Positions 37,012 through 64,000 of a stretch of 64,000 nt of DNA are shown in pieces. The stretch spans positions 496,001 to 560,000 of the forward strand of contig NZ_JAIWPJ010000002.1 of NCBI RefSeq assembly GCF_020515625.1, given 5' to 3'. The translations under genes and the position numbers were made by a program. Within the stretch, counting starts at the first letter, position 1, and each line of letters starts with the position of its first letter. The notes below the pieces were generated by a model, which was not told the DNA's origin, made no database searches, and was given only the letters and a program-made list of their open reading frames with translations. Source of the DNA: Natrinema amylolyticum. GTDB taxonomy: Archaea > Halobacteriota > Halobacteria > Halobacteriales > Natrialbaceae.

Positions 37012-37351
37012 AGGTAGTGAGTGTAACGGTGGTATCCACGCGAGGTAGGACCAGGACGATAAAGGACTTTTTCGGGGCGTCGCGTGACTGTTTATACTGT
37101 TGACCGACTCCCCCCGCACGATTCTCCGGAGGACCCGCTCTCAGTGGAGTATCGCGACCGCCAGCACTCCCGGTGAGTAGCTATTGACCAGCGTACTCTC
37201 GGGGAGATAGTTTCGAGAACACCAGTACTGAGCCCCCGGCCAGAGTCCGATACCGGACCGGATCCATCGAGCGAACAACGTGCCGCGAGCGGGCATCGGG
37301 AGAGCACGCGACTACCGCACGGAACGGCGGCGAAGCCACCGTTCTTCCCGT
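37012..37351. other. Divergent spacer before the glycan locus
   Basis: 340 bases with no convincing gene. On the minus strand CCTTTATCG at about 37056-37064 can serve as TATA element for the Gln-rich protein gene. The plus-strand side leads into the first copy of the shared glycan-locus promoter element at 37352. Confidence 0.5.
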
Positions 37352-37374
37352 TCTAATAACTCCATAGTAATTGG
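37352..37374 (+). promoter_or_regulatory. Glycan-locus promoter element, site 1 (phosphohexomutase)
   Basis: CTA at 37353 followed 11 bases later by ATAGTAA (37364-37370). The gene start at 37397 is 33 bases from the first A of the second box, consistent with a leaderless message. Confidence 0.6.
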
Positions 37375-37396
37375 TTCGCTATCAGATTCTGTCACT

Positions 37397-43521: not shown

Positions 43522-43602
43522 GTGAGTACGTCGGATCGCGACCGATCGTCGGCGAACGGGGCTGTCGATCGTCGGCTCGAACGTTCAAGGGTGAAACCGT
43601 GA
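43522..43602 (+). CDS. Possible 26-residue leader ORF before the flippase
   Basis: GTG 43522 lies 36 bases from ATAATAA of promoter site 4, the leaderless position. The 26 codons are Ser/Arg/Asp-rich (VSTSDRDRSSANGAVDRR...) and end in TGA overlapping the flippase GTG as GTGA. No motif. Its likely role, if real, is translational coupling. Confidence 0.35.
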   Translation: MSTSDRDRSSANGAVDRRLERSRVKP

Positions 43603-45221
43603 ACAGAAGTATCGCGAGCGGCGTCGTCTCGGTCGTCAGTGCGAAAGTCGTCGTTCTCGTCGTCACTGCGCTCTCGACGCCGCTACTCTACCGGTTTCTC
43701 GGCGCATCGGCGTTCGGCGAGTACGCGTTTCTGCTGTCTCTCTTCGCGATTTACATGATCTTCGTCAGTTCCGGGGTCACCGACGGGGTCCGGAAATTCC
43801 TCGCGGAGGACCGCGCCGCGGCGAACTGGAGCGAACACGTCGTCGGCTTCTACTTCCGGCTGGCGGTCCTCCTCTCGGTCCTCGGAGCCTGCCTGCTGGT
43901 CATCGCGACCAGATTCGGGATCGTCGCCCTCGCGTTCGGACCCGAGCTGACGACGTATTTCTACGTCCTCGCCGCGCTCGTGATTTCGGCGCAGTTTCGC
44001 GATTACGCGCGGAAGACGCTCATGGGATTCGGCCTCGAGCGGTACTCGGAACCGCTCAAGGTTCTCGACAAGCTCGGCTTCGTCGCGGTCGCGATTCCGC
44101 TGACTTACGTCGGCCTCGGTGTGATGGGGGCGCTGGCGGGTCACCTGTTCGCGAGCGTCCTCGTCGCCGCGGTCGGGCTCCTCCTCGTCCACCGACGGAT
44201 TCCGCTGTCATGCGCGTTCACTCGCCCGTCGACGCGGTTTCCTCGGAGAGAGATGCTCACGTTCAACTCGATGAGTATCGCGCTGATCTTCCTGCTGATG
44301 TCGCTCTATCACATCGACATCGTGATGCTCCACCGGTTCCGGACGGACGCGGCAGTCGGTAACTATCGAGCGGCGCTGACGCTCGCCGAGTTCCTCTGGT
44401 TCGTTCCGATGGCGATTCAGACGGTCTTCGTTCACTCGACGTCGGAGCTGTGGTCACAGAACCGCTACCGGAAGATTTCGGCGCTCGCCTCGCGGACGAC
44501 GCGTTACACGTTTCTGCTGACGGCCGTGATGGCGGTCGGACTCGCGGCGCTGGCGGACGTCGCCGTTCCGATCTACTTCGGTGCCGAGGCCGAGCCGGCG
44601 ATCACGCCCCTGTTGCTGTTGCTCCCCGGCGCGCTCGGATTCGCCCTCGCGCGACCGATTCTCGCGGTGTCACAGGGAGAAGGGACGCTCCGGTATCCGG
44701 TCGTGGCCACCGGCGGCGCAGCGCTGATCAACCTGGTACTCAACGTCGCCCTTATTCCGCGCTACGGGATGCAGGGTGCGGCCGTCGCGACCAGCATCGG
44801 ATACGGGTCGATGTTCGTCTGCCACTGCTGGAGCGCTCGACTCGTCGGCTTCGATCCGCTCGCGGACGCGCGACTCGGCCGCGCAGTCCTGACGACCGTC
44901 CTCGCGGCCGTTCCGATCGTCGCCCTCTCGACGGCGATCGCGAACCCGTGGCTCGCGCTCGTAGTCGTCCCGCCCGTCGGATTCGCGATCTTCGTCGCGT
45001 TCGCGCTCCTCGTCGGCGCACTGGATCCGGCCGAACCGTTCGAGGTACTGTCAGCGTTTCCGGACCCGATCGGGTCGACCGCGGACGCGATCGCCGGTCG
45101 AATCGCGGCCGGCGGGAGCGACGGTGCGACTCGTAACTGGTTGCAGATCCTCCTGTTCGTCGTCGGACTGTCCCTGCTCGTCTCGGGGCTCGCATTGGGC
45201 GTCCTCGATCCCGGCGTGTGA
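43599..45221 (+). CDS. Polysaccharide flippase (Wzx/MATE-like)
   Basis: 540 residues starting at GTG 43599, 12-14 membrane spans, of the oligosaccharide-flippase superfamily. LLYRFLGASAFGEYAFLLSLFAIYMIFVSSGVTDGVRKF at the N-terminus is typical (compare LGxxxFGxYA). Later come LFLLMSLYHIDIVMLHRF, VGNYRAALTLAEFLWFVPMAIQTVF and NLVLNVALIPRYGMQGAAVATSIGY. It should move lipid-linked glycans across the membrane, as AglR-type proteins are proposed to do in haloarchaeal N-glycosylation. The last 90 residues hold two extra spans and a soluble loop. Confidence 0.88.
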   Translation: MNRSIASGVVSVVSAKVVVLVVTALSTPLLYRFLGASAFGEYAFLLSLFAIYMIFVSSGVTDGVRKFLAEDRAAANWSEHVVGFYFRLAVLLSVLGACLLVIATRFGIVALAFGPELTTYFYVLAALVISAQFRDYARKTLMGFGLERYSEPLKVLDKLGFVAVAIPLTYVGLGVMGALAGHLFASVLVAAVGLLLVHRRIPLSCAFTRPSTRFPRREMLTFNSMSIALIFLLMSLYHIDIVMLHRFRTDAAVGNYRAALTLAEFLWFVPMAIQTVFVHSTSELWSQNRYRKISALASRTTRYTFLLTAVMAVGLAALADVAVPIYFGAEAEPAITPLLLLLPGALGFALARPILAVSQGEGTLRYPVVATGGAALINLVLNVALIPRYGMQGAAVATSIGYGSMFVCHCWSARLVGFDPLADARLGRAVLTTVLAAVPIVALSTAIANPWLALVVVPPVGFAIFVAFALLVGALDPAEPFEVLSAFPDPIGSTADAIAGRIAAGGSDGATRNWLQILLFVVGLSLLVSGLALGVLDPGV

Positions 45222-45429: not shown

Positions 45430-46488
45430 CTATCGCACCTGGGTCTCGAGCGGTTCGCTCTCCGCCATGTCGAACACCATCGCGAGCAGGAGGAACGCGG
45501 TTCCGGCGACGAACAGCAGCAGGCTCGTCGCGCTCCGGACGGCCGGAACGTCCCCGCTCGAGAGCGCGGAAACCAGCGCCGTCCCTCCGCCGAGAACGGC
45601 GGTCGCGGCCGTCGCGGCGCCGAACAGGTAGAGCAGTGCGAGCGGGTGGAAGTCGAGCACGAGGTACTTGGTCTGCAGTCGCCACAGGAAGTTACGCAAC
45701 AACATCTGCGACACCTTCGGAACGTATCGCGAGTACGTGATGCTCGACTCCTCCTCGCCGTAGACTGCCGGCATCGCCACGTCGGCGACGCGCATCCCGC
45801 GGACGTTCAGCTTGACCAGCAGGTCGTTGCAGTAGCCGTAATACTCGTAGAGGGCCGGCACGTCGATCGCCGCGAGCGCGTCGTGCGAGATCGCCGTGTA
45901 CCCGTTCTGGGGATCCATCGTCTTCCAGTAGCCGGACGCGATCTTCGTCAGAAACGTCAGGGTCGCGTTGCCAACGAACCGAAACCGCGGCATGGCGGCT
46001 CGGTACTCCCGGGACAGGAGCCGGTTCCCCTTCGTATAATCGGCCTCGTCCTCCACGATCGGATCGAGGAGCCGCTGCATCTGGGAAAGATCCATCTGGC
46101 CGTCCGCGTCGACGGTGACCGTCGCGTCCACCTCGTCCGCGAGCGCGGCGAGATAGCCGGTCTTGATCGCACCGCCGGCGCCGCGGTTCTCGCGGTGCTC
46201 GATCGGGACGACCCGACCGATGGCGTCGCGGACCGTCGCCCGACTCGTCAGTGCGGACGCACCACCGTCGGCCGCGAGCCGTTCGACGGTCTCGCCGGCA
46301 CGGTCCTCGTTCTCGCTCGCGTCCGCCCGCGCGGCCTCGAGGATCTCGTCCAGGGTGCCGTCCGTCGATCGGTCGTCGATCGCGTAGATCCGATCGACGT
46401 ACGCGGGCATCCCCCGGATCACGTCGCCGACGAACCCTTCCTCGTTGTAGGCGGGTATCACGACGCCGACGCTCGCGCCCCGGTACAT
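45430..46488 (-). CDS. GT2 glycosyltransferase with C-terminal membrane spans (DPM1-like)
   Basis: 352 residues. GVVIPAYNEEGFVGDVI, AIDDRSTDGTLDEI and VTVDADGQMDLSQM (DxD-like Asp) form the GT-A domain; NRGAGGAIKTGY and GYWKTMDPQNGYTAISHDAL are typical of dolichyl-phosphate sugar transferases. An acidic insertion of about 35 residues (ASENEDRAGETVERLAADGG region) splits the usual NTD part. Two membrane spans lie near residues 270-345. It probably transfers a hexose from a nucleotide sugar to dolichol phosphate. The ATG overlaps the stop of the small upstream ORF. Confidence 0.88.
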   Translation of the reverse strand: MYRGASVGVVIPAYNEEGFVGDVIRGMPAYVDRIYAIDDRSTDGTLDEILEAARADASENEDRAGETVERLAADGGASALTSRATVRDAIGRVVPIEHRENRGAGGAIKTGYLAALADEVDATVTVDADGQMDLSQMQRLLDPIVEDEADYTKGNRLLSREYRAAMPRFRFVGNATLTFLTKIASGYWKTMDPQNGYTAISHDALAAIDVPALYEYYGYCNDLLVKLNVRGMRVADVAMPAVYGEEESSITYSRYVPKVSQMLLRNFLWRLQTKYLVLDFHPLALLYLFGAATAATAVLGGGTALVSALSSGDVPAVRSATSLLLFVAGTAFLLLAMVFDMAESEPLETQVR

Positions 46489-46929: not shown

Positions 46930-47904
46930 ATGACTCGCGTCAGCGTCATCATCCCGACGTACAACAGAGCGGCGACGCTTCCGAGCGCGATCGACAGCGC
47001 GCTCGAGCAGACGGTCGACGACCTCGAGGTGGTCGTGGTCGACGACGGTTCGACCGACGACACCGAGTCGGTGCTGGCCGCCTACGAGGACCCGCGGGTT
47101 CGACCGGTCGTCCACGCGACCAATCGCGGCGCGAACGTCGCTCGGAACACGGGACTCGAGCACGCGCACGGTGAGTACGTCGCCTTCCTCGACTCCGACG
47201 ACGAGTGGCATCCCGAGAAACTCGAGCGCCAGTTCGCGGTCCTCGAGGACCGCTCGAGCGACTGGGTCGGTGCCTACTGCGATTCGGCGTACGACCTGTC
47301 CGGACCGACCGGCCGGCTCCGGTCGGCCGCCGCGGCCGTCCTCGCTCGAGGGGGCGACGAGCCGACGCGGGAAGGGAACGAGGAGCTGGTCGGCGAGATC
47401 CTCGCGGACAACGTCCAGCCGGGAGCCGGCTCGACGTTGCTCGTCCGGACCGAGGTCGCCAGGGAGGCCGGCGGTTTCGACGAGGACCTCGACCGGTTCC
47501 AAGATCCGGAGTTCTGCCTGCGCGTGCTCGAACGCGGGAAACTCGCCTACGTCGACGAGGTGCTCGTCCGCCGCGAGGACACCGGTCATCCGTCGGCGGC
47601 CGTCGTCGCGAACGCGAGCGAACAGTACCGCTCGGCGTACGAGGACGAGATCGATCGTTTCGAGGAGGAGGGATACGAGATCCGCTCGAGCCACGAACTC
47701 GTCGTCGCGAAGCGGTACTTCGCGGAGGGACGGTTCCTCCGCGGCGCGTGGCACTTCCGCAAGGCCGCGGTATCGCCGCGAGCGTACCCCGGCGTCGGCT
47801 GGGTCGCCGCTGCCGGCGTTCGACGGCGGCCGCGTCCGATCGTCGCGACGCTCGTCGTTCTGTTCGTCGCGGCGACGCTCGGTCGGCGCGCACTCTCCCG
47901 GTGA
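46930..47904 (+). CDS. GT2 family glycosyltransferase
   Basis: 324 residues. VSVIIPTYNRAATLPSAIDSALEQTV, VVDDGSTDDTESVL, NRGANVARNTGLEHAHGEYVAFLDSDDEWHPEKLE (with the DxD) and later FDEDLDRFQDPEFCLRVLERG define a GT-A inverting enzyme of the EpsS/Rhamnosyl-transferase-like group. The C-terminal 25 residues are hydrophobic (PIVATLVVLFVAATLG), probably a membrane tether. It should add a sugar to the lipid-linked glycan on the cytoplasmic side; donor unknown. Confidence 0.9.
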   Translation: MTRVSVIIPTYNRAATLPSAIDSALEQTVDDLEVVVVDDGSTDDTESVLAAYEDPRVRPVVHATNRGANVARNTGLEHAHGEYVAFLDSDDEWHPEKLERQFAVLEDRSSDWVGAYCDSAYDLSGPTGRLRSAAAAVLARGGDEPTREGNEELVGEILADNVQPGAGSTLLVRTEVAREAGGFDEDLDRFQDPEFCLRVLERGKLAYVDEVLVRREDTGHPSAAVVANASEQYRSAYEDEIDRFEEEGYEIRSSHELVVAKRYFAEGRFLRGAWHFRKAAVSPRAYPGVGWVAAAGVRRRPRPIVATLVVLFVAATLGRRALSR

Positions 47905-48004
47905 GTACATCGATTCTCCGCCGATCGTTTTCGATCTGAAACGACCGGGGTTCGGGTTCTATCGACGCAGATCGTTGCAAACGCGGAACGATATCGTTTC
48001 AGCC

Positions 48005-48027
48005 GGTTATCGTACCTGTAGTAAAAT
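48005..48027 (+). promoter_or_regulatory. Glycan-locus promoter element, site 7 (M14-like protein)
   Basis: GGTTATCG with TTA at 48007, then GTAGTAA at 48018 (offset 11; G replaces the usual first A). ATG 48053 is 35 bases away. Confidence 0.5.
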
Positions 48028-48052
48028 CGACCGGCACACACGGAACGGACGA

Positions 48053-49264
48053 ATGAGACGCAATACACTCTCACGGAGATCCGTATTGGCCGTCACAGCC
48101 GGTTGTACACTCGTCAGTGCTGGCGTCGCCAGCGTCGTCGGCGACACGGCCCAGAACGACGACGAGGGCATCAGTCGGGACTCAATCGTCGTTCGCGAGG
48201 GAACGGCCGAAGAGACCACGGTGTACGTCGCGACCGCGGATACCGAGGGTCCGACGGCCGTCGTCGTTGGCGGCATGCACGGGAACGAGGTCGCGGGCTA
48301 CACGGCGGCGGGTCGGATCGCTGATTTGACCATCGACGCCGGAACGCTCGTGACGATTCCCGAGGCCAACGCCGTCGCGATCGAGCGCGGGACCAGAAAC
48401 GACGAGGAGGGGACCAACCTCAACCGGCAGTTCCCGGAGGGGGAGACGCCGGAAACGCAGCTCGCGCGAGAGCTCTGGGGTGTCGTCAGCGAGTACGATC
48501 CCGACATGCTGATCGATCTCCACGAGTCGACGGGTATCTACGCGGGCGATCCCGTCGACGGCGTCGGACAGGCGATATTCCACTCGGACGGCGACGACGC
48601 GGCCGACGCCGCTGCGGACGCCGTCGACTACGTCACCGAAACCTACGTCGACGATCCTCTCCTCGCGTTTCAGACCGGCCCCTTCTCCGAACCCGACACC
48701 GACCCGGCCGGTCTGCTCGCCCACAAGGCCGCCCGCGATCTGGACGCCGACGGATTTCTCGCGGAGACCCTCTCGACCGACGTCGCACTCGAGACCCGCG
48801 TCCAGTGGCACACGGCGATCGTCGAGCGGCTCTTGGAGGGCGAACTCCTGCTCGACGACGCCGACGGCCGCAGTCCGTCCGAAGATCCGGTCGACGAGGA
48901 ACCGGCGGAACCCGAGCCCGAACCCGAACCTGAAGAGCCAGGCGACGACAGCGCCGACGACGGTGACGAGGGCCCGACGGCGGAGTCACCGATCGCACGG
49001 ATCGAGACGCGTCCGCCGTCGGCCACGGAGACGATTCTCGAGCCGGGCCAGACGGTCACGCTCGACGCCTCGCAGTCGCGCGATCCGGACGGCGAACTGG
49101 TGGGCTACGAGTGGTGCATCGGCGACGACGGCTCGTTCGACGAGGCCGGCGAGACGATCGAGGTGACGGTCACTGCGAGCGGCGACCATCCGGTCGCGTT
49201 GCGCGTCGTCGACGACGACGGATCGACCGACGTCGATCGGGTCACGCTCTCGACGAACTGCTGA
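48053..49264 (+). CDS. Secreted M14/aspartoacylase-like hydrolase with PKD domain
   Basis: 403 residues from ATG 48053. Tat signal LSRRSVLAVTAG. Residues about 45-265 are a zinc carboxypeptidase/succinylglutamate-desuccinylase fold: VVGGMHGNEVAGY (first zinc His and Glu), EGTNLNRQFP (Arg/Asn substrate site) and LIDLHESTG (second zinc His), so catalysis looks intact. A Glu/Pro linker (EPEPEPEPEEPGDD) leads to a PKD-like beta domain (residues about 315-403: VTLDASQSRDPDGELVGYEW, LRVVDDDGSTDVDRV). It likely cleaves an amide or peptide bond at the cell surface. Confidence 0.87.
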   Translation: MRRNTLSRRSVLAVTAGCTLVSAGVASVVGDTAQNDDEGISRDSIVVREGTAEETTVYVATADTEGPTAVVVGGMHGNEVAGYTAAGRIADLTIDAGTLVTIPEANAVAIERGTRNDEEGTNLNRQFPEGETPETQLARELWGVVSEYDPDMLIDLHESTGIYAGDPVDGVGQAIFHSDGDDAADAAADAVDYVTETYVDDPLLAFQTGPFSEPDTDPAGLLAHKAARDLDADGFLAETLSTDVALETRVQWHTAIVERLLEGELLLDDADGRSPSEDPVDEEPAEPEPEPEPEEPGDDSADDGDEGPTAESPIARIETRPPSATETILEPGQTVTLDASQSRDPDGELVGYEWCIGDDGSFDEAGETIEVTVTASGDHPVALRVVDDDGSTDVDRVTLSTNC

Positions 49265-49441: not shown

Positions 49442-50770
49442 TCAGCGGTCGCCCGCTCGAAGTTTCCAGAGGTCGTCGAACGTAATTACCTCGACGTCGG
49501 CGCTGTCGATGTGCTCGAGTAACGCCTCGTAGTCGCCCTCGGGCATCGTGTTGTCGGCGTCGAACGTGTGGAAGTTCAGGATTGTACACTGGTTGTGACG
49601 AGCGGCGAGATCGACACACCGTTTCGAAATCTCGAGGTCGTGTCCGATCGTCCGCGGGAGGGCGAGCGGATCGAAGCCGTAGACGCTCGTCGTGTTGACG
49701 TTTCCGGCCTGGTTGAAGCCGCCGCAGTAGTGGTAGTCGGTCGTCTGCTCGAGGCTCGTCTCGTCGAAACTGTTGTGCGGATAGACGATGTAGTTCGCCC
49801 CTTCGAAGCCGTTGTCGATGAACCACCGTTTGTCGTTCCTGAGCCGTTCGTCGATCACGTCTTCGCCGTCGAGTTCGTGGATCGGATCGTGCGTCCCGTG
49901 GACGACGATCTGGTCGCCGGCGTCCTGGCGCTCCTGCAGTTCCGAGAGCGACATGACTCCCTCCTGTTCCTGTTCGACCCACCGCGGCACCGGTGCCTGA
50001 ACCGCCGGGAACCCGTACTCGTCGTGGAGCGGCGCGGCGGTCTCGTAGTAGTCGCGCGTCCCGTCGTCCCAGCTCAGCATGACGTACCCCTGATCGGGCG
50101 TCTCGTGGGTCCGCAGATCGTCGACCCAGACCTCCGCCTCCGGCATGGAGTGGAGCACCTGAATCTCGAGTCGATCGAGATAGTCCAGCGACGGTTCGGG
50201 TTCGTCTTGCTGGAAGACGCCGGGACTCGTCCGGAACCAGCCGACGTCGGGCGCGCGGTACCTGATCTCCCGGAGCGAGTACACCTTCTCGCCGCCGAAC
50301 TGGTCGACGAGACGCAGGTTGACCGCGATGCTCTGGGGCGTCGTCGTCCGGATCGCAACGGAGAGGTCAGTCTCCGTCAGGTCTTCGCCCTCGAGGCTCC
50401 GCTCCGCGATGATACTCTCGCCGCCGTTCGACTGAAGCTTGAAACTCTGCTCACCGTCGAACACGACGTCCGTGTCCGCTTCGCCGGATCCCCGACTGAC
50501 GGTCCAGGCATCGAGATCTGCGAAGTCGTCGAGCGATTCGCCCGGCTGTCGATACTGTTCTCGACTGTCGAACTCGGTCTCGAGCGCCGGGACTCCGTCC
50601 GTGAGGCCCGGTATCGAGTCCTCCGACCCACCCGGGGTTTCGTCCGATGAATTGCCGTTGACCTCGTCGGTCGCCGACCTGAGTCGATCCGCACAGCCGG
50701 CCATACCCGTGAGTCCGACCGCACCCGACAGTGCGAGGAACCGTCGTCGCGTCGCGCGTTTCTGTGACAT
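49442..50770 (-). CDS. Secreted polysaccharide deacetylase (NodB-type) lipoprotein
   Basis: 442 residues from ATG 50770; the long upstream frame is not conserved. Tat-lipoprotein signal RRRFLALSGAVGLTGMAGC (Cys26). Residues about 85-215 are a carbohydrate-binding-like beta sandwich (DVVFDGEQSFKLQSNGGES, AVNLRLVDQFGGEKVYSL). The NodB domain starts with VMLSWDDGT (catalytic and metal Asp, about residue 235), then VVHGTHDPIHEL (metal His) and ends with ILNFHTFD and VITFDDL. It should remove N-acetyl groups from an external polysaccharide. Divergent from the asparagine-synthase-like gene. Confidence 0.88.
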   Translation of the reverse strand: MSQKRATRRRFLALSGAVGLTGMAGCADRLRSATDEVNGNSSDETPGGSEDSIPGLTDGVPALETEFDSREQYRQPGESLDDFADLDAWTVSRGSGEADTDVVFDGEQSFKLQSNGGESIIAERSLEGEDLTETDLSVAIRTTTPQSIAVNLRLVDQFGGEKVYSLREIRYRAPDVGWFRTSPGVFQQDEPEPSLDYLDRLEIQVLHSMPEAEVWVDDLRTHETPDQGYVMLSWDDGTRDYYETAAPLHDEYGFPAVQAPVPRWVEQEQEGVMSLSELQERQDAGDQIVVHGTHDPIHELDGEDVIDERLRNDKRWFIDNGFEGANYIVYPHNSFDETSLEQTTDYHYCGGFNQAGNVNTTSVYGFDPLALPRTIGHDLEISKRCVDLAARHNQCTILNFHTFDADNTMPEGDYEALLEHIDSADVEVITFDDLWKLRAGDR

Positions 50771-50995: not shown

Positions 50996-52699
50996 ATGAA
51001 CAGGGAACTCTTCGGTGTATTCGGCGGTATAGACGCGTTCGAGCGGTTCAGATCCAGCGACGACTTCGACGAGGTGCTCGCCGGATCGACGCTGACGGTC
51101 GGAATCCGCGATTCCGATCTCGGCACACCCGGCTGGAGCGCCGCGTACACCGGCGACGAGGGGTGCTGTCTCATCTGGGGCGAGGCGTACGTTCCCGGTG
51201 ACGAGCCAAACGCCGCGCGCTGGCTCCTCGAGCGCTACGAGACGGACGGACGAGACGCACTGGCGGCGCTCAACGGGTCGTACCTGGCCGTGGTCGACGC
51301 CGAGTGGAGCGACGACGCGTTCGTCGCCACGGATCCCGTTCGGTCCCGAGAGTGCTTCTATACCGACGATTCGGGGACTCGCGTCTTCGGAACTGACGCC
51401 GCTGCGATCGGCCGAACGATCGCGGACCCGACGCTCTCTCGAGACGGCGTCCTCGAATTCCTCCACCTCGGGGTTATCCTCGGCGAGAAGACGACCGTCA
51501 GGGGACTCCAGCGACTGCCGATCGACAGCCGGCTCACGCCCGCGTCGGTCGACTCGCTCGATCGCTTCGTCTACGACCCGCAGCCGTCCCGACAATTCGA
51601 CGCGGTCGACGAACTCGCCGATCGACTCGAGCGGGCGCTCCGACGGCGGTCGTCGCTCCCGGGTCGAGCGGGCGTGCTCCTCTCGGCGGGCTACGACTCG
51701 CGAATCATCCTCTCGCAAGTCGAGGACATCGACCGCAGTTATACGGTGGGATCACTGGCGGCACAGGAGGTCCGCGGCGCGCGATCGCTCGCCGCCCAGT
51801 ACGGCGCGAGCCACACTGCCTTCCCGCCGGACGAGCGCTATCTCCGGCCCGACGAGTCGAAGATCCGCTACTCACAGGGGATCAAAGAGTCCTTGCATAT
51901 CCACCACGCCGGCTACACGGACGAAATCGAGGTCGATACGATGTATCACGGCCTCCTCTGTGACACGTTCTTCCGCGGCCATTTTACCGCCTCGGAGACC
52001 GTCGACGTCCTCGATAAACGCATTCCGACCGGCCGGCTCGATCCGGATCCGGACCCCGTCGAAGTGCTCCTCGAGAAGTTTGGCTACAGCCGCGAGGCCA
52101 GCCTCGAGCTCGCCGAGCGGACGTCCTTCGACGTCGATCCGGAAGCGTTCGTCAGGAACGCTATCGGCGACGAGTTCGCGGCGAGACGGGACCGCGCGGA
52201 GACGGTCCAGAACGCGCTCACCTGCTGTGGGATCGCAAACCAGCCGTCGATGCCCTTCCACACTCACCTGTCCGATCACTTCGTGACCTCGTTTCTGGCG
52301 ACGGACCGCGACCTGATCGACTGGCACCTCATGACACCGCCGGAAGACCGAACGACGGAAACGTTCCTCCGGGCGTGCGAGCGGATCGACGACGACATCC
52401 TGCGACACCGTCCGCCCGACCGACCGCACGATGCGACGCTACTCAACGAGGTGGAAGGCTTCGTTCGGCGGAAGACACCGTTTCTCTCGTCGTTCGAACC
52501 GCCGTGGCCGGACCGCAAGACGCTATTCGAACGCCACGACTTCGATCGACGGCTGTTGGGCGACCTCGAGCACGTCCATCGCTTGCCGGCCAGACACAAA
52601 CTCAGACTCACCGACCTCCGCGGGTGGCTCGAGTGCTGGTCGGACTCACAGGAGCAACTCTGCTCGTGGCTGCGGCCACCGGAGCGGACGGTCGCCTAA
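50996..52699 (+). CDS. Asparagine-synthase-like protein lacking the glutaminase Cys
   Basis: 567 residues. N-terminal ELFGVFGGIDAFERF and WGEAYVPGDEPNAARWLLERYETDG...LNGSYLAVVDAE resemble the class II glutamine amidotransferase domain. The nucleophile Cys2 is missing (sequence starts MNRELF), so it cannot release ammonia from glutamine in the usual way. The synthetase part has the PP-loop GVLLSAGYDSRIIL (about residues 226-239). AsnB-like proteins of this type occur in polysaccharide and lasso-peptide clusters and catalyse amidation or cyclisation. Here it may amidate a uronic acid or carboxylate of the glycan using free ammonia; this is inference. Confidence 0.8.
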   Translation: MNRELFGVFGGIDAFERFRSSDDFDEVLAGSTLTVGIRDSDLGTPGWSAAYTGDEGCCLIWGEAYVPGDEPNAARWLLERYETDGRDALAALNGSYLAVVDAEWSDDAFVATDPVRSRECFYTDDSGTRVFGTDAAAIGRTIADPTLSRDGVLEFLHLGVILGEKTTVRGLQRLPIDSRLTPASVDSLDRFVYDPQPSRQFDAVDELADRLERALRRRSSLPGRAGVLLSAGYDSRIILSQVEDIDRSYTVGSLAAQEVRGARSLAAQYGASHTAFPPDERYLRPDESKIRYSQGIKESLHIHHAGYTDEIEVDTMYHGLLCDTFFRGHFTASETVDVLDKRIPTGRLDPDPDPVEVLLEKFGYSREASLELAERTSFDVDPEAFVRNAIGDEFAARRDRAETVQNALTCCGIANQPSMPFHTHLSDHFVTSFLATDRDLIDWHLMTPPEDRTTETFLRACERIDDDILRHRPPDRPHDATLLNEVEGFVRRKTPFLSSFEPPWPDRKTLFERHDFDRRLLGDLEHVHRLPARHKLRLTDLRGWLECWSDSQEQLCSWLRPPERTVA

Positions 52700-53398: not shown

Positions 53399-54010
53399 TC
53401 AGTTGACGAGTCGCTTGATCGTGACCACCGTAAAGACCGTGAGGATGAGCGCGCTCAGACCGATGCCCGAGAGGACCGAGGTAAACGGCAACTCCATCAC
53501 TGCACCGAGGAGAATGGCGTAGGAGACGACCGTCGCTCCGATATAGTAATCGTCCCACTGTGGGCTCGCAGAGCGCTTCTCATCGGTCGATTCCTCGGTC
53601 GAGTCCAATTCGAGGTACTGGTCGACTCGATCTGCAGGGGGCTTTCGCTCGACGAGCCCGCGGTTTTGCTGGTACTCGATCAGACCCGCTTCGTCGAGTT
53701 TCGAGAGATGCGACTGGTAGAGGGGGATGTAGACGCGCTGACGCTGTGTCGACGTGAGGTTTTCGACGGTGGTATCGTGTTCCCACGCCGCGACCTGTTC
53801 TGCGACATCGCGCATGCGTACGGGCCCTTCAGTACCTCGGAGATACCGGAGTACCATCCGACGACGTTCGTTCTGCAGGAGATGAAAGATGTCGTCCTTC
53901 GAAAACGCAGGCTCCTCGGAGAGGCAATCAGCGTCCTCATCCGCGCCCTGATCGTCGTCGATCTCACCTGCCTCGTCCTTCTCTTCGGAGCTGATATGTT
54001 TCGCTTTCAT
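53399..54010 (-). CDS. DUF7344 winged-helix protein with two membrane spans
   Basis: 203 residues. An acidic lead of about 35 residues precedes the DUF7344 domain (DIFHLLQNERRRMVLRYLRGTEGPVRMRDVAEQVAAWEH, RQRVYIPLYQSHLSKLDEAGLIEYQQNRGLVE), a textbook haloarchaeal regulator fold. Two C-terminal spans follow (YIGATVVSYAILLGAVMEL and IGLSALILTVFTVVTI). A TTTATTAC box lies about 35 bases upstream. With the neighbouring gene it forms a convergent pair; such proteins are frequent beside glycan and S-layer genes. Confidence 0.88.
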   Translation of the reverse strand: MKAKHISSEEKDEAGEIDDDQGADEDADCLSEEPAFSKDDIFHLLQNERRRMVLRYLRGTEGPVRMRDVAEQVAAWEHDTTVENLTSTQRQRVYIPLYQSHLSKLDEAGLIEYQQNRGLVERKPPADRVDQYLELDSTEESTDEKRSASPQWDDYYIGATVVSYAILLGAVMELPFTSVLSGIGLSALILTVFTVVTIKRLVN

Positions 54011-56406: not shown

Positions 56407-58383
56407 TCAGTTACTTGTCGGAGAGGCCGTACACATCGTCACGTCCCCGTTCGTGTAGACCGTGGCCTGCTCCGGCCGACAGAGTTGCTCTCGAGAGAGC
56501 TGTGCGATCCGTGCGTTCCCGTCGGCGTCCGTGACGTACGTCGCGTCGGTCGATTGTTCCGATCGATAGACCGTATAGTTGTGCGCCGCGATGCCGTCCT
56601 CGGGAACCGTCGCGGTCGTCGTCGACGGATACGCGCCGGTCCGACTGAACAGCGTCTGATACGGGTGGTCGGTGTGGAGTTGCTGATCGGGGCGGATCTC
56701 GTCTCCCTGCGGCGACCCGGTCAGCTCGCCGATCGACTCGGCCGCGGCGAGCTCCGATTCGTCGTACGCGAGGCGCTCGTGCTGGTTCGAGAAGACCGGA
56801 TTGTCGGCGTTGCTCTCGGCGGCGAGGACCATCGCGCCCGGATAGACGAGCACGACGACGAGCAACACGGAGGCGATCAGTGCCGGCGTCATGTTCCCTC
56901 TCAGCGCCCGTACGCCGATCGCACCGAGGACTGCCATCGGTGCGTAGAGGAACGCGAACCAGCGCGTCGGGATGAAGTTCCGGATGCCGAACATCGGCAG
57001 TCCGAGGACGAACACCAGCATGAAGGCTGCCGCCAGCAAGAGGGTGAACACCGACTGTTCGGCGCGTCGCCTGTGGACGACGTACAGACAGCCGACGAAC
57101 GTGACACCGAGCAGGAGCAGGAATCCGAGGTTGTCCACGTAGGGAACGAGCTGTTCGATCAGCGAGGGCGCGGCCTCGGCCCCCGCTTCGGCCCCGTCGG
57201 ACGAGTCGCCCGCGGTATTGAGGAATCCGGCGCTCTCCTCGAGCGTCTGGGTGAAGTAACTCAGGACCGTCGCCAGGAACGAGTCCTGACGATACGGTGT
57301 CAGCGACCACACGAAAATCGTCAGTCCGAGGTTGAAGACGACCAGTCCGACGAGGTTGACCGGTTTTTTCGTCCGGAAGACGCTCGTGTCGAGCCGCGTG
57401 AGCCCGAGCGGACCGATCACGAACACGATCTGAGCGAGAAACGCTGCGAGCAACAGGACGAGCATGATGAACGTCGACACCTGATGGGTGAGGATAACGG
57501 CGACGCTCGACAACACGAGGAGCGAGAAGTCCCGGATCGTGTACTCGATCCGCATCACTCGGATCAACGCGTACAACATCGCGAGGAAGAAGATCAGCCC
57601 CAGGCTCGTGGGGATGAGGTGCATTCCCCATCTCGCGACGTGGCTCGCGAAGGCGTAGAACGCCGTCGCCAGCACTGCCCACCGCGGCGAGACGAGCAAG
57701 TTCGTGGTCGCGTAGACGAGCAGGGCCGCGAGGGGCATCACGAGTCCCACGGAGAGATACAACGCGGCACGAATCGGGACGTCGTACAGCAGCGACGAAG
57801 CGGCGACCAGCAGGTGGTAAAACGGCGACCCGTAGTGTTTGTCGTGGGAAATCGCGCTCAGGGACTGCTCCGTGAGGATCGCATCGATGAATCCGCGGTG
57901 TGTCCAGATGTCGATCCCGATGAACCCCGGTGTCGCGTACAGCGCGGTGAACCGGAAGACGAACGCGAAGCAGACGATCTGGAGGAGCAGCAAGCCGGGA
58001 TGGAGGTCGCGATCGCTCGCGAAGACGATCTGGCCGATGACGAGCGTCCCGACGACGCTCGCCAGCCCGAAGAAGAGCCGCGTTCGCGCCCCCTGAACGA
58101 CCGTCAGCAGTACGAGCCCCGCGAGTCCGACCAGGACGACGCTCGGGAGCGCCATCGACACCGCCGACGGAAGGGTCGGGAAGGCCCGCGAGTCGTCCCG
58201 CTGATACAGGGAGAGGAGATACAACGCACACGCGGTGCCGAGGATCACCGGCACGGTATTGAGGTAAATCTGCGACGTGAGAAATCGCAGCGGAAACAGC
58301 ACCGCAGCGAGCAGGAAGCCGCAGATCGCCGCGACGGTGTCGAGTCGCAGCGGTCGCAGTTCCGACAGCGATCTATACTTCAT
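56407..58383 (-). CDS. Multi-span membrane protein, probable GT39/ArnT-like glycosyltransferase
   Basis: 658 residues from ATG 58383. About 13-14 spans occupy residues 15-520. The first long external loop has GFIGIDIWTHRGFIDAIL with acidic residues near a membrane edge, then HDKHYGSPFYHLLVAAS, which resembles GT-C enzymes of the dolichyl-phosphate mannosyltransferase class. RTRWFAFLY-like (PTRWFAFLYAPMAVL) follows, then an external C-terminal domain of about 130 residues (ESNADNPVFSNQHERLAYDESELAAAESIGELTG). It probably moves a sugar from dolichol phosphate to a glycan outside. Last gene of the four-gene operon, overlapping the GT4 stop by 11 bases. Confidence 0.75.
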   Translation of the reverse strand: MKYRSLSELRPLRLDTVAAICGFLLAAVLFPLRFLTSQIYLNTVPVILGTACALYLLSLYQRDDSRAFPTLPSAVSMALPSVVLVGLAGLVLLTVVQGARTRLFFGLASVVGTLVIGQIVFASDRDLHPGLLLLQIVCFAFVFRFTALYATPGFIGIDIWTHRGFIDAILTEQSLSAISHDKHYGSPFYHLLVAASSLLYDVPIRAALYLSVGLVMPLAALLVYATTNLLVSPRWAVLATAFYAFASHVARWGMHLIPTSLGLIFFLAMLYALIRVMRIEYTIRDFSLLVLSSVAVILTHQVSTFIMLVLLLAAFLAQIVFVIGPLGLTRLDTSVFRTKKPVNLVGLVVFNLGLTIFVWSLTPYRQDSFLATVLSYFTQTLEESAGFLNTAGDSSDGAEAGAEAAPSLIEQLVPYVDNLGFLLLLGVTFVGCLYVVHRRRAEQSVFTLLLAAAFMLVFVLGLPMFGIRNFIPTRWFAFLYAPMAVLGAIGVRALRGNMTPALIASVLLVVVLVYPGAMVLAAESNADNPVFSNQHERLAYDESELAAAESIGELTGSPQGDEIRPDQQLHTDHPYQTLFSRTGAYPSTTTATVPEDGIAAHNYTVYRSEQSTDATYVTDADGNARIAQLSREQLCRPEQATVYTNGDVTMCTASPTSN

Positions 58384-59335
58384 GGCTGACCCCCGTCGGA
58401 CGGCACAGCTCTCCGTCCCGGTCCAATAATCGGCGGTACAGTCCGTGGAGGCGCTCTCCGAGGGACTCGACGGAGAGCCCGTCGATCGAATCGCGACCGT
58501 CGGATCGTCCGCCGTCTTCGACGGCCCGCTCAAGCCCGCCGAGGAGCGCCCCGTCGTTGTCGCTGACGACGCAGTTCGTCACGCCGCGGACCGTCTCGCG
58601 GACGAATCCGACGTCCGTCGAGACGACCGGCAGGTTACACGCGGCGGCCTCCTTGACGACCATCGGGCCGCTCTCGCGTTTCGACGTGACAAGCAGGACG
58701 TCGCTCGCGTTCATGTAGTAGGGCATCACCTCGTGAGCGACGCCGGAGACCGTCCGGAGTTCGAGGTCGGCGTCCGCGTGCTCGACGAGCCGGCGTGCCC
58801 GCGAAAAGTCCTTCACCGATCGAGTTCGGTCGTACGGGAAGAGCGCGACCGGTCGATCGGTCTCCCATCCAATCTGCTCGCGCGCGTGCGCTCGAGACAT
58901 CGGCCGAAACAGCTCGGTGTCGACACCGAACGGAATCAGTCGGTGCTCGGCCTCGAGTTCGCGCGACATGGCCCGACTCGGAACGATCGCGGCGTCCGAC
59001 CGGCGGGCGCTGTGGCGACTGATCGATCGGAGCCACGACTGCCGGCTCATGAGATCGGTTCCCCACAGCGTCACGACGACCGGTCGCGTCGGCTGAGCGA
59101 GCGCGAAGGGGGCGACGAGCCCGTAGTTCGCGTGCACCAGATCGTACGACGTCGACTGGACCGCCGAGAGGAGTTTCGGGTAGAGTCGGGCGTAATCGAC
59201 TGCTGACCGGCCCGAATCCCCGCTGTGTTCGCCGGGGACTTCGAGGACCGTACAGTCGACGCCACGGTCCTCGAGGGCGGACACCTGCTGATCGAAAAAC
59301 GGCCGCGGCGACGTGACCAGTTGGAGTACCTTCAT
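58373..59335 (-). CDS. GT4 family glycosyltransferase
   Basis: 320 residues, a GT-B fold. MKVLQLVTSPRPFFDQQVSAL and YDLVHANYGLVAPFAL form the N-terminal acceptor domain. RLIPFGVDTELFRPM, ASDVLLVTSKRESGPMVVKEAAACNLPVVSTDVGFVRE is the donor site with the Glu-x7-Glu of GT4 (ESGPMVVKE). It is shorter than the usual 360-400 residues. The ATG overlaps the DUF354 stop (TGATG). It adds a sugar from a nucleotide donor to the growing glycan; linkage unknown. Confidence 0.9.
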   Translation of the reverse strand: MKVLQLVTSPRPFFDQQVSALEDRGVDCTVLEVPGEHSGDSGRSAVDYARLYPKLLSAVQSTSYDLVHANYGLVAPFALAQPTRPVVVTLWGTDLMSRQSWLRSISRHSARRSDAAIVPSRAMSRELEAEHRLIPFGVDTELFRPMSRAHAREQIGWETDRPVALFPYDRTRSVKDFSRARRLVEHADADLELRTVSGVAHEVMPYYMNASDVLLVTSKRESGPMVVKEAAACNLPVVSTDVGFVRETVRGVTNCVVSDNDGALLGGLERAVEDGGRSDGRDSIDGLSVESLGERLHGLYRRLLDRDGELCRPTGVSHEV

Positions 59336-60405
59336 CAGTGGCCTGTATCGGCTGCGGGAGTCGATCGTCCCGCGGTACGCGTCTGCGCGAGCGTCTCGAT
59401 CCGTCGGACGACGTAGTCCGTGACGTCGATCCGGTCGGCGAGCAGGCGCTCGCGACGGCGCTCCCACGTGTCGGCGGATTCGTCGACGACCGAGACGGCC
59501 CGCTCGAGCCCGTGCGCGTGTCTCGCATCGCCGTCGTACTCGAACAACAGGCCGTACTCCTCCTCGAGTTCCGTCGTGTAGCCGAGCGAAAGGGGGTTCA
59601 CGTAGACCGCGGGCGTGCCGAGCATGGCGGCTTCCGCCGCGGTCGTCGCCCCCTCGCTCAGCACGACGTCGGCGTACGCGAGCAGGTCGTGCATCCGGTC
59701 CGGCGACGTCTCGAATCGATACGATTCGAGGGCGGCCGGCGGCTCTCCTTCCGCCGTCAGTAGGACCCGGACGCCCGCATCCTCGAGTCGCTCGACGACC
59801 GCTCGGGGGTCGTCGAAGCCGCCGTGACCGACGTCGTGGGAGGCGTCCCAGCTGCTGAGTCGGACGACGGCGAACGATTCCTCGGGGGCGAGCCCGACGT
59901 CCTCGCGTACCGTCGGGTCGGGGTCGAACCGCTCGGGATGGAGATAGGCGAGTTCGTGATAGCCCGGGTACGTCACCTGTTTCGGGCCGATATCGTCCCG
60001 ATAACACGCCGGTGTGGCGATCACGTCCGCGAACGGATAGCCGAGTTTCGTGATGAGAGTCGCGTGTTCGGTGTCGTAGAAGACGAGACTCTTCGTACGC
60101 ACCATCGACGCGACGTGGGCGGCAGCGACGCCGCCGATCGCCGTGATCACGTCCGGATCGATCCGCCGCGCTCGCTGCAGCAGTCGCAGCTCGTACGTCG
60201 CCTGAACCGCCGCCAGCGAGACCAGCGAGTCGGATTCGCCGGCCAACACCTCGTGGTCGATGTCGTACGCTTCGAGGAGCCGGACGGCGACGTCGCTCTC
60301 GCGAGCGAAGACGTGGACGTCGTGGCCTCGCGCTTCCAGTTCCGCGATCGGATTCCGGAAGAAGTGGACGTGGCCGGGATGCTGGATCGTTATCATCACG
60401 CGCAT
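59335..60405 (-). CDS. DUF354 GT-B fold protein
   Basis: 356 residues. It starts MRVMITIQHPGHVHFFRNPIAELEARGHDVHVFARE, the DUF354 signature, and continues IDPDVITAIGGVAAAHVASM, YDTEHATLITKLGYPFADVI, and DVVLSEGATTAAEAAMLGTPAVYVN with the nucleotide-binding Ser-Glu-Gly. The fold is related to UDP-GlcNAc 2-epimerase and MurG. It is found in archaeal glycan clusters; whether it is an epimerase or a transferase is not known. The 117-base gap to the upstream dehydrogenase is the largest in the operon. Confidence 0.85.
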   Translation of the reverse strand: MRVMITIQHPGHVHFFRNPIAELEARGHDVHVFARESDVAVRLLEAYDIDHEVLAGESDSLVSLAAVQATYELRLLQRARRIDPDVITAIGGVAAAHVASMVRTKSLVFYDTEHATLITKLGYPFADVIATPACYRDDIGPKQVTYPGYHELAYLHPERFDPDPTVREDVGLAPEESFAVVRLSSWDASHDVGHGGFDDPRAVVERLEDAGVRVLLTAEGEPPAALESYRFETSPDRMHDLLAYADVVLSEGATTAAEAAMLGTPAVYVNPLSLGYTTELEEEYGLLFEYDGDARHAHGLERAVSVVDESADTWERRRERLLADRIDVTDYVVRRIETLAQTRTAGRSTPAADTGH

Positions 60406-60522: not shown

Positions 60523-61926
60523 TCACAACCTCCGGTAGGCGAGTCCCGCGTCGGCGGCGGCGTCTTCGTCGACCGCGCCGGTCACGTCGATCAGTGCGGG
60601 ATCGTCGGCGAGTTCGCTCGCCACTGCCTCGAGGTCCAGTTGTTCGAACTCCTCGTGGGGCGTCGCGAGCATGACGGCGTCGAACCCCTCGAACGAGAGT
60701 CGGTCCTGAACCTCGATGCCGAACGACTCTCGGGCCGCATCGTCGTCCGCGAACGGGTCGAACCCCTCGACGTCGATGTCGTACTCCCGGAGTTCGTCGA
60801 TGACGTTGCCGATCTTCGAGCTTCGAATGTCCCCGACGCCCGGTTTGTACGCCAGTCCCAACACCAGGACGCGACTCTCGCGGAGCGTCTTGTGACACTG
60901 GTTGAGCGCCTTGATCGTCAGCTCGGCGACGTGGTCGGGCACCGACTCGTTGACCTGCCGGCTCGTTTGCATGAGTTCGGGGTCGAACCCTTCTCGGGCC
61001 GATCGGTACGCGAAGAAGTACGGATCGACGGGAATGCAATGGCCGCCGACCAGCCCCGGCCGGTAGTCGTGGAAGTTCCACTTCGTGCCCGCGGCCTCGA
61101 GGACGGCCTGTCCGTCGACGTCCATGTTGTCGAGCGCCATCGAGAGCTCGTTGACGAACGCGATGTTGAGGTCCCGCTGGGCGTTCTCGACGACCTTGCA
61201 GGCTTCGGCGACCTCGATCGACGGGGCGCGGTGGACGCCCGCGTCGACGATCGACTCGTACAGCGTCGCCACGTCCTCGAGTACCCGCTCGTTCTGTGCG
61301 CTGACGACTTTGACGACGTCCTCGAGGCCGTGTTCCTCGTCGCCCGGCGTGGCGCGTTCCGGAGAGTAGCCGACGAAGAAGTCCGTGCCGGCGGTCAGTC
61401 CGGACGCGTCTTCGAGTGCCGGCACGAGCGTCTCGCGCGTCGTGCCCGGGTAGACCGTCGACTCGAGGACGACCGTCGTTCCGGGGTCCATCTTCGAGCC
61501 GACGGTGGTCGCCGCGCTCTCGACGTAGCCGAGGTCCGGCCGATCGTCGTCGTCGATCGGCGTGGGAACGGCGATAATGACGTAGTCGGCCGCACCGATC
61601 TCGGTCGCGTCGGTCGTATACGAGATGTCACCGTCCTGGATCGCGTCGTCGGAGAGGTCACCGGTCGTGTCGACGCCGTCCTGGAGTCGACCCACCGTCA
61701 CGTCGTCGACGTCGTATCCGATGACGCGGTAGTTCGACTGGGCGAACCCGACTGCGAGCGGGAGCCCGACGTACCCCAGTCCGACGACACAGATCGTCGC
61801 CGCACGCGTCGACTGTGCGTTCGAGTGCTCGAGGGCGGTCCCGCCGCGGCCGCTCGATTTTCGTGCGTGCTGGTCGCTCTCCCGATCGTCTGCTCGCGTC
61901 TCCGTGTCGCTGATTATCGTGGTCAT
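60523..61926 (-). CDS. Nucleotide-sugar (UDP-GlcNAc/ManNAc-type) 6-dehydrogenase
   Basis: 467 residues from ATG 61926, with about 45 non-conserved residues before ATICVVGLGYVGLPLAVGFAQ, the NAD Rossmann motif. Further segments: DYVIIAVPTPIDDDDRPDL, VVLESTVYPGTTRETLVP, FVGYSPERATPGDEEH, EVAEACKVVENAQRDLNIAFVNELS, GHCIPVDPYFFAY with the catalytic Cys (about residue 302), and VLGLAYKPGVGDIRSSK. The PERATPG and NAQRDLNIA versions suit the WecC branch, giving a uronic acid such as UDP-ManNAcA. First gene of the glycan operon. Confidence 0.9.
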   Translation of the reverse strand: MTTIISDTETRADDRESDQHARKSSGRGGTALEHSNAQSTRAATICVVGLGYVGLPLAVGFAQSNYRVIGYDVDDVTVGRLQDGVDTTGDLSDDAIQDGDISYTTDATEIGAADYVIIAVPTPIDDDDRPDLGYVESAATTVGSKMDPGTTVVLESTVYPGTTRETLVPALEDASGLTAGTDFFVGYSPERATPGDEEHGLEDVVKVVSAQNERVLEDVATLYESIVDAGVHRAPSIEVAEACKVVENAQRDLNIAFVNELSMALDNMDVDGQAVLEAAGTKWNFHDYRPGLVGGHCIPVDPYFFAYRSAREGFDPELMQTSRQVNESVPDHVAELTIKALNQCHKTLRESRVLVLGLAYKPGVGDIRSSKIGNVIDELREYDIDVEGFDPFADDDAARESFGIEVQDRLSFEGFDAVMLATPHEEFEQLDLEAVASELADDPALIDVTGAVDEDAAADAGLAYRRL

Positions 61927-62035
61927 GGGTGGTGCGTTGTCGCTGACCGTCGCACGACCGCGTGCGACGGTGACTCCGGAATCGGTGCACCCGCGAGCCG
62001 CGGGGCGTTCCGTGGAATCGACGAGTCGGTTGCGG

Positions 62036-62060
62036 GGGTTTACTATACCTCGAATAAACC
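62036..62060 (-). promoter_or_regulatory. Glycan-locus promoter element, site 11 (dehydrogenase operon)
   Basis: On the minus strand GGTTTATTCGAG then ATAGTAA, offset 11; the outer GGTTTA and TAAACC also form an inverted repeat. The first gene starts 120 bases downstream, so the message has a leader of about 90 bases without an obvious small frame. Confidence 0.55.
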
Positions 62061-62278
62061 GATGCGGGAGCGACAACGAGCGGACACCGGCGGTCGGGAC
62101 CGCTACTGACGGATTTGGCGGGTCGGGAGTCGGTCGTCCGAGTGAGCGCTTAGAACGTTGTTAAATCACCTGTACTGCTCTATAATGAAGGGGGCGCGGG
62201 TCGGATATCCGATGCGGTCGGCGAGGTCAAGACGCTCGTGACTCGGTCTCGCACCGACCGCAATCAGAACCGCGAATC

Positions 62279-63390: not shown

Positions 63391-63534
63391 ATGACACGAC
63401 CCAGTACTGCAGTTCAGGCAGCGGTCTCGAACCGGCTCGAAACGACCGACGCGACCACCGTCACCCGCGTCGCACGGCGTTCGTCCGATGGGACACCGCA
63501 GTCGACGACCGCCGCTCGGGAGGTGATGAGCTGA
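63391..63534 (+). CDS. Possible 47-residue leader ORF before glmS
   Basis: ATG 63391 opens 47 codons, Thr/Ser/Arg-rich (MTRPSTAVQAAVSNRLE...), ending in TGA that overlaps the glmS ATG (TGATG). No motif is recognisable. Coupled translation into glmS is plausible. The glmS frame is also open upstream to ATG 63336, so open frames are easy to find here and the evidence is modest. Confidence 0.35.
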   Translation: MTRPSTAVQAAVSNRLETTDATTVTRVARRSSDGTPQSTTAAREVMS

Positions 63535-64000
63535 TGTGCGGTATCATCGCCCGTATCGGCCACGGAAGCGCGGCGGAGACGCTCCTCACGGGCCTCGAGA
63601 ACCTCGAGTACCGCGGCTACGACTCGGCTGGGATCGCCGTCCAGAACGGATCGGGCGTCAAGGTCCACAAGACGTCCGGCGAAGTGTCCGACCTCAAATC
63701 GTCGCTCGATAGCGATCCGCACGGAAACATGGGGATCGGCCATACCCGCTGGAGCACGCACGGGCCACCGACCGACGAGAACGCCCACCCGCACACGGAC
63801 ACGGCAGGCGACGTGGCGGTCGTCCACAACGGCGTCATCGACAACTACGACGAGCTCCGGACGGAGCTCGCGGCGAAGGGCCACGAGTTCGAGAGCGACA
63901 CCGATACGGAGGTCATCCCGCATCTCATCGACGAGTACCTGGCGACGACCGACGACACCGAACGGGCGGTCCGCGAGGCCGTCGACACGCTCGAGGGGAG
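63534..64000 (+). CDS. glmS: Glucosamine-6-phosphate synthase (partial, N-terminal part)
   Basis: The frame runs off the right edge after about 155 residues. MCGIIARIG gives the N-terminal nucleophile Cys of a class II glutamine amidotransferase; LENLEYRGYDSAGIAV, IGHTRWSTHGPPTDENAHPH and VVHNGVIDNYDELR are GlmS signatures. The start must be 63534, because Cys must become residue 1 after Met removal; in-frame upstream codons would bury it. It converts fructose-6-phosphate and glutamine to glucosamine-6-phosphate, the first step to UDP-GlcNAc for the glycans of this locus. Confidence 0.95.
   Translation, partial: MCGIIARIGHGSAAETLLTGLENLEYRGYDSAGIAVQNGSGVKVHKTSGEVSDLKSSLDSDPHGNMGIGHTRWSTHGPPTDENAHPHTDTAGDVAVVHNGVIDNYDELRTELAAKGHEFESDTDTEVIPHLIDEYLATTDDTERAVREAVDTLEG

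Follow-up and report, generated by a model that had tools for sequence, protein, structure and literature searches.

The AsnB-like gene and its locus

The window (the whole 64-kb stretch of DNA that was analysed) carries an AsnB-like gene, encoding the protein P0001, together with genes for a flippase, glycosyltransferases, a nucleotide-sugar dehydrogenase and the beginning of GlmS (Table 1). Beside the deacetylase gene, an ORF at 47171-49264 (+) encodes an AstE/M99-like carboxypeptidase domain and a C-terminal PKD domain. A DUF7344 protein at 53399-54010 (-), a putative regulator, has relatives in 56/81 loci (window plus the best 80 of 102), in either orientation.

Table 1. Position of the AsnB-like gene, of its predicted elements and of the glycan-type genes in the window
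Feature	Position	Strand	Details
AsnB-like gene, predicted glutaminase-dead (P0001)	50996-52699	+	ATG start, 567 aa
Ntn-glutaminase-like N-terminal domain, ~residues 1-195	50996-51580	+	hhalign and structural alignment
PP-loop S-A-G-Y-D-S-R, residues 230-236	51683-51703	+	A2 alignment
H-G-L-L-C-D-T, residues 318-324, aligned to AsnB/ASNS S-G-E-G-S-D-E	51947-51967	+	alignment
Phosphoglucomutase/phosphomannomutase family, possible GlmM	37280-38734	+	PGM_PMM I-IV
Wzx-type polysaccharide flippase	43599-45221	+	PF01943, PF13440
Family 2 glycosyltransferase	45430-46488	-	
Family 2 glycosyltransferase	46930-47904	+	
Tat-type lipoprotein, divergently oriented, carrying a polysaccharide deacetylase domain	49442-50770	-	PF01522; Tat/lipobox by eye
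Large putative membrane protein (judged by eye)	56407-58383	-	no Pfam or NCBIfam match
DUF354/glycosyltransferase-like protein	59335-60405	-	
Nucleotide-sugar 6-dehydrogenase	60523-62076	-	TIGR03026 385 bits; start probably inside frame
GlmS start (MCGIIARIG...)	63534-64000, off window end to ~65345	+	

The reading frame was called from the first ATG, GTG or TTG after a stop. An ORF scan found no in-frame ATG, GTG or TTG upstream of 50996 able to add a Cys, and the genome search placed the same aligned ATG in 29/29 full-length relatives, ruling out a Cys hidden by a mis-called start. Scanning for TTTATA as a TATA-like box gave five sites in the 64-kb window, none of them immediately 5' of the AsnB-like gene. 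The nearest named relatives belong to Natrinema species, with 92% identity to the window protein in N. ejinorense.

For the comparisons, 102 loci were confirmed from GTDB species genomes and the best 80 were kept, with proteins 43-92% identical to that of the window. One of the two seed patterns for this set was the N-terminus itself, which introduces a retrieval bias; the survey of 61 genomes and the 29 full-length relatives provide a check that is free of it. Alignment A2 comprised 75 rows (P0001, 55 of the 80 loci, six further family members and 13 MVG-type paralogues), leaving 62 family rows when the MVG-type proteins are subtracted. The tree was built by a quick method from 79 rows, with L108 and L142 left out.

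Predicted fold and altered active sites

Single-sequence and model scores for P0001 were weak. PF00733 (Asn_synthase) gave 19 bits over residues 206-276 (20.8 bits in the genome search and 21.2 with neighbours in frame, against a cut-off of 21), TIGR01536, the model for glutamine-hydrolysing AsnB, reached 43.5 bits and stayed below its cut-off of 267.1, the macrolactam-cyclase model gave 15 bits against 300, and phmmer of the single sequence found no match in the PDB. The architecture was settled by profile-profile comparison and by a structure model. In hhalign the family profile aligned with 99.7% probability to six haloarchaeal AsnB proteins that have MCG at the expected start. The model built from the 75-row alignment had a mean pLDDT of 93.4, while an earlier one from 19 close homologues (pLDDT 47) was discarded. 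The top Foldseek matches were TsnB9 (E 9.6e-15), E. coli AsnB (8.9e-14), beta-lactam synthetase, human ASNS and carbapenam synthetase, and VIA alignments gave Z 24.9 for TsnB9 (482 residues, rmsd 3.3), 23.8 for E. coli AsnB (1ct9; 418 residues, rmsd 3.5) and 22.8 for beta-lactam synthetase (408 residues). Both domains of the AsnB fold, the Ntn-like domain and the PP-loop synthetase domain, are present in the predicted structure. Taken together, predicted fold and profile comparison identify the product as an AsnB-superfamily protein and bear out the architecture claimed in a preliminary description of this DNA, with matches to TsnB9, AsnB and beta-lactam synthetase extending over 400-480 residues.

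The N-terminal domain appears to have lost its active site. Both hhalign and the VIA structural alignment, whose aligned range begins at model residue 3 and at residue 1 of the 1ct9 chain, place the Cys nucleophile at residue 3, which is Arg in the window protein and K, R, T or N in 62/62 family rows of A2 and in 80/80 loci (best 80 of 102). The N-terminal Cys of TIGR01536-type AsnB is thus absent from all 80 of these loci. The preliminary description had reported its loss at residue 2; the absence of the nucleophile stands, but the equivalent position is residue 3. Phe6 had been considered as the replaced Cys and was ruled out by the same two alignments. Two further positions are changed: the equivalent of Asn-74 is Trp61 (Trp/Phe/Val in 55/6/1 of the 62 family rows) and that of Asp-96 is Ala74 (Ala in 61/62 rows, Ser in one), both being named as glutaminase-site residues of human ASNS in the excerpted text of PMC6748925. 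The alignments therefore indicate that the whole glutaminase site, and not the Cys alone, is lost.

The synthetase domain presents a mixed picture. The PP-loop LLSAGYDSR of the preliminary description was recovered at residues 228-236 and is conserved across A2, with the consensus S[AG]GxDSR and rare exceptions among the 62 family rows (S230 in 60, A/G231 in 61, G232 in 62, D234 in 62 and S235 in 61). Asp234 and Arg236 are invariant in 75/75 rows, MVG-type paralogues included, and the second Gly of SGGxDS is replaced by Ala in 44/62 family rows. D323, the Asp of the downstream motif, which we take to be a metal ligand, is retained in 62/62 family rows, so that the N-type ATP pyrophosphatase signature (SGGxDS PP-loop plus downstream Asp) is present. 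The SGGxD loop is called the PP-motif in the excerpt of PMC6748925, where human Glu-364 is also given as needed for activity. By alignment, the position of this catalytic Glu is Leu320 in P0001 and is mostly Leu in the family (L/A/T/M/G/V/W across the 62 rows, with no E or Y), and the second Glu of S-G-E-G-S-D-E has become Thr or Ser. Nor has the essential Lys (Lys-466 of human ASNS, number 467 in the printed chain) a Lys equivalent in the family: the column, an invariant Lys in the six haloarchaeal AsnB, falls in a gap in the hhalign comparison, and the nearest candidate is Arg472, found in 51/62 rows. The family has near-absolute residues of its own, with E298, H303, H318, W443, H444 and R537 in 62/62 rows, F6 likewise constant (62/62) and H301 in 61/62. 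The alignments thus suggest a synthetase site that is half kept, with PP-loop and Asp323 retained and the Glu and Lys positions changed. The family's own constant residues would fit a changed substrate or mechanism and are compatible, less easily, with a pseudo-enzyme.

Distribution, selection and conserved neighbours

A match was found in 33/61 genomes of the survey and a full-length one in 27/61, the window's own genome counted, while 24/392 genomes sampled from the phylum matched the profile at E<=1e-20, the full-length ones all belonging to the window's order. By title, the 80 loci (best 80 of 102) are haloarchaeal save L142, a metagenome bin titled Euryarchaeota. Against six Natrialbaceae orthologues (L065, L066, L069, L075, L081 and L083), dN/dS was 0.18-0.26 for the whole protein, 0.13-0.34 for the N-terminal and 0.16-0.25 for the C-terminal domain; five remoter orthologues gave 0.26-0.44 for the whole protein, at dS >1 and hence near saturation. 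Purifying selection acts on both domains, the N-terminal one evolving as slowly as the C-terminal one.

In the tree, the window protein is one of the 41 rows of a starred clade, every one of them with glycan context. A separate 11-row group (SH-aLRT 94) includes all eight loci (8/80, best 80 of 102) in which an MVG-type AsnB-like gene, whose Cys-less product starts with MVG, lies upstream, 48-60 bp away, as a two-gene pair. Examples are L109:8017-9945, L111:8013-9941 and L120:8041-9939, with five more loci, and a tandem of two synthetases that both appear glutaminase-dead is an odd arrangement. At the variable position of the PP-loop the 11-row group has K, H, N or Q; of the other 69 among the 80 rows, 68 have Y or F there and one has S. 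Both kinds of copy, one inside the group and one outside it, occur together in four species: Halogranum amylolyticum, H. rubrum, Halobium salinum and Halegenticoccus soli. This pattern makes it probable that the family serves two functions or acts on two substrates.

Within 10 kb of the gene, two or more of nine glycan-type clusters are found in 66 of the best 80 of the 102 loci, and not a single one in 14 (one of these on a contig of only 4.3 kb); the nine include one unannotated membrane protein, and L110 and L111 qualify solely through GlmS and GlmU. A nucleotide-sugar 6-dehydrogenase lies within 10 kb in 53 of the same 80, and the closest equivalog model for that of the window is TviB, a UDP-GlcNAc dehydrogenase (349 bits against a cut-off of 592). 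The preliminary description had placed this gene next to the AsnB-like gene. The link is conserved, but the two are not adjacent, the dehydrogenase being ~7.8 kb off on the opposite strand. Its further suggestion, offered as speculative, that the urease genes could supply ammonia, found no support, with UreC at 1459-3162, ~48 kb away. The links to GlmS and to the divergent deacetylase lipoprotein are stronger than those it had named. The lipoprotein gene, a neighbour in most Natrialbaceae loci, is directly divergent in 32/80 loci under a strict rule (up to 450 bp) and gives a tblastn match anywhere in the flank in 47/80, again in the best 80 of 102. Relatives of the 56407-58383 protein, a candidate polymerase or membrane glycosyltransferase, occur in 54 of these 80 loci.

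Individual loci show other neighbours. In Halogranum rubrum a CapA-type protein (PF09587; L128:11773-13107), which also scores 92 bits with the MslH lasso-peptide epimerase model (cut-off 700), lies directly 3' of the AsnB-like gene. In Haloferax elongans (L144:135-5686) two nucleotide-sugar dehydrogenases, nearest to the TviB and archaeal ManNAc-type models, stand near a GlmS-AsnB-like pair with a NeuD-like acetyltransferase and a carbamoyl-phosphate-synthase-like protein, all equivalog scores being below their cut-offs.

By tblastn with the GlmS of the window's own genome (P0007), a GlmS lies near one copy of the AsnB-like gene, on the same strand, in 27/27 genomes with a full-length copy (own genome included), 10.5-16.2 kb downstream in 25 and 32-87 bp upstream in two. 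Counted by copies, 27/30 full-length ones are linked, and second copies in G029, G049 and G057 have no nearby GlmS match. Several of the matches contain stops, some of which may fall in a stretch such as the 67 residues that P0007 has ahead of MCG, and the match in G003 is partial. Most of the 27 genomes come from one family and are not independent, so that the 25 downstream cases largely represent one inherited order; the independent part of the evidence is the adjacent arrangement in other families. There, GlmS lies 8-98 bp upstream of the AsnB-like gene in 16/80 loci (best 80 of 102), mostly outside the Natrialbaceae with Halovivax as the exception, and GlmU-type genes and glycosyltransferases are often found around the pair. 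MCG stands at or near the start of GlmS in 18/18 cluster rows and in P0007, which would make GlmS a candidate donor of ammonia. In G016, of the same genus and without a full-length AsnB-like gene, a GlmS copy of 88% identity (G016:C17:53885-55600) has a stop inside the match, and this locus may be decaying.

Possible function and comparison with known systems

P0001 represents a genuine and conserved AsnB-superfamily variant that is not described among the literature matches listed; by title and opening lines, none of these open-licence PMC papers treats the family. We tentatively favour, at a probability of about 0.45, a putative glutaminase-independent, ATP-using amide synthetase that would serve an amino-sugar or amino-uronate surface polysaccharide, its catalysis, amide, substrate and nucleophile all being presumptive. 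The enzyme would be a cytosolic synthetase in which the glutaminase domain is kept merely as structure. ATP would be bound at the PP-loop (Ser230-Arg236) and Mg by Asp234 and Asp323 as putative metal sites, a carboxylate, possibly of a hexosaminuronate or an amino acid, would be adenylated, and an amine or free ammonia would then attack to give an amide on a sugar precursor, which the Wzx-type flippase would export. Within the glycan locus, the TviB-like dehydrogenase may supply the hexosaminuronate and GlmS the hexosamine. ATP use is proposed because PP-loop and Asp323 are retained, and carboxylate adenylation with amide formation because of the AsnB fold. With the glutaminase lost, the nucleophile would be either an amine or ammonia, the latter taken from solution or supplied by a partner. 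By alignment, the catalytic Glu and the essential Lys are replaced, so the established mechanism of adenylation cannot be taken for granted. Counting against this reading are the 14/80 loci (best 80 of 102) without any of the nine clusters, the 3/30 copies without GlmS, and the sister group, in which the gene is paired with that of an MVG-type protein and glycan genes are often missing. The analysis revealed no member of the family whose reaction is known.

Losing both the glutaminase residues (Cys, Asn and Asp) and the Glu and Lys of the synthetase site would also be expected of a pseudo-synthetase, a protein that is no longer an enzyme and instead partners or regulates another one. The linked GlmS could be that other protein, its glutaminase domain having the same fold (VIA Z 10.8 between the P0001 model and the GlmS glutaminase domain, 1xff). 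However, the PP-loop Asp and Ser, Asp323, E298, H303, H318, H444 and R236 persist in 61-62/62 relatives down to 43% identity, a conservation beyond what would be expected of a scaffold, and both domains evolve slowly; we consider such a role unlikely.

Equally improbable in our view is the proposal of the preliminary description, in which uronic acids of the glycan are amidated by an ordinary WbpS-type uronamide synthetase using free ammonia instead of glutamine. WbpS and WbqG are likewise encoded by AsnB-like genes in polysaccharide loci with a UDP-HexNAc-type dehydrogenase and Wzx, and the window locus has its TviB-like dehydrogenase, with relatives in the 53/80 loci (best 80 of 102) given above. 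According to mutant evidence in the excerpted text of PMC7468200, WbpS (PGN_1234) and WbqG are required for the uronamide forms of HexNAcA-type sugars. In contrast, P0001 has no match to TIGR03108 (WbpS/eps_aminotran_1; curated cut-off 816.9) at E<=1, whereas five haloarchaeal AsnB proteins starting with MCG score 466-539 bits and another reaches 352 bits along a portion of the model, all below the cut-off, so that haloarchaeal AsnB with an intact Cys are closer to this model than the window protein. With catalytic Glu and Lys gone by alignment as well, uronic-acid amidation is possible but is not favoured over the other readings.

Less probable again is a glutaminase-free AsnB-type ligase that would join a carboxylate, of a uronate or an amino acid, to the free amine of a hexosamine made by a dedicated GlmS, giving an amide-linked sugar block. 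A sugar amine in place of ammonia would explain why glutaminase, Glu and Lys are lost while GlmS is kept in two arrangements. Such a reaction would fit the N-glycyl-glucosaminyl bridges of Halococcus walls, known from chemistry according to the excerpt of PMC4187196, which show haloarchaea to contain amide-linked amino sugars; among the literature matches listed, in their excerpted text, no enzyme is named for these bridges.

A metabolic role outside glycans, with the glycan linkage as the context of some lineages only, would account for the 14/80 loci (best 80 of 102) without any of the nine clusters, for the group whose partner is another AsnB-like protein lacking the Cys, and for the four species holding both kinds, but we hold it to be the least probable reading, given the entirely glycan-context clade of 41 rows that includes the window and the GlmS linkage in two different arrangements.

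In sum, a haloarchaeal AsnB-type family with full-length copies in 27/61 sampled genomes has, as judged by alignment, lost its glutamine site and altered its synthetase site, and stays with genes for amino-sugar supply. If active, the putative amide synthetase that we favour would add the modification of sugars to the reactions of a superfamily associated with asparagine, antibiotics and peptide amides, and would offer a genetic handle on amide-containing surface polysaccharides of archaea.

With E. coli AsnB and human ASNS the window protein shares the predicted two-domain fold (~420 residues), the PP-loop and the downstream Asp, at 16% identity to E. coli AsnB in the structural alignment, whereas it lacks the N-terminal Cys, Asn-74, Asp-96, the catalytic Glu and the essential Lys. 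Its best structural match, the hydroxyamidotransferase TsnB9 (7ylz), starts with MCG and has thus kept the Cys, unlike the window protein. The MVG-type haloarchaeal proteins have in common with the window family Trp61 (13/13), the D-S-R loop and the missing catalytic Glu, but are only 17-24% identical to it, have the loop S-G-G-S-D-S-R in 12/13 rows and Ser, Thr or Ala at position 318, and lack E298, W443 and R537 (13/13). With Val or Ala at the Cys position in 13/13 rows, they were judged poor candidates for a glutaminase donor; in 9/13 rows a Cys stands three columns further on, at the place of Phe6.

Beta-lactam and carbapenam synthetases and lasso-peptide cyclases have the AsnB fold without the glutaminase nucleophile and form amides independently of glutamine. 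The beta-lactam and carbapenam synthetases (1jgt, 1q15) match the predicted fold of the window protein at Z ~22, and the family resembles the beta-lactam synthetase and lasso cyclase type in having no glutaminase Cys. Beta-lactam synthetase has a Tyr at the AsnB Glu348 position, forming a Tyr/Glu dyad, whereas residue 320 of the window family is not Tyr in any of the 62 rows. The surroundings differ as well, the beta-lactam and lasso systems lying among antibiotic or peptide genes and the window family among glycan genes.
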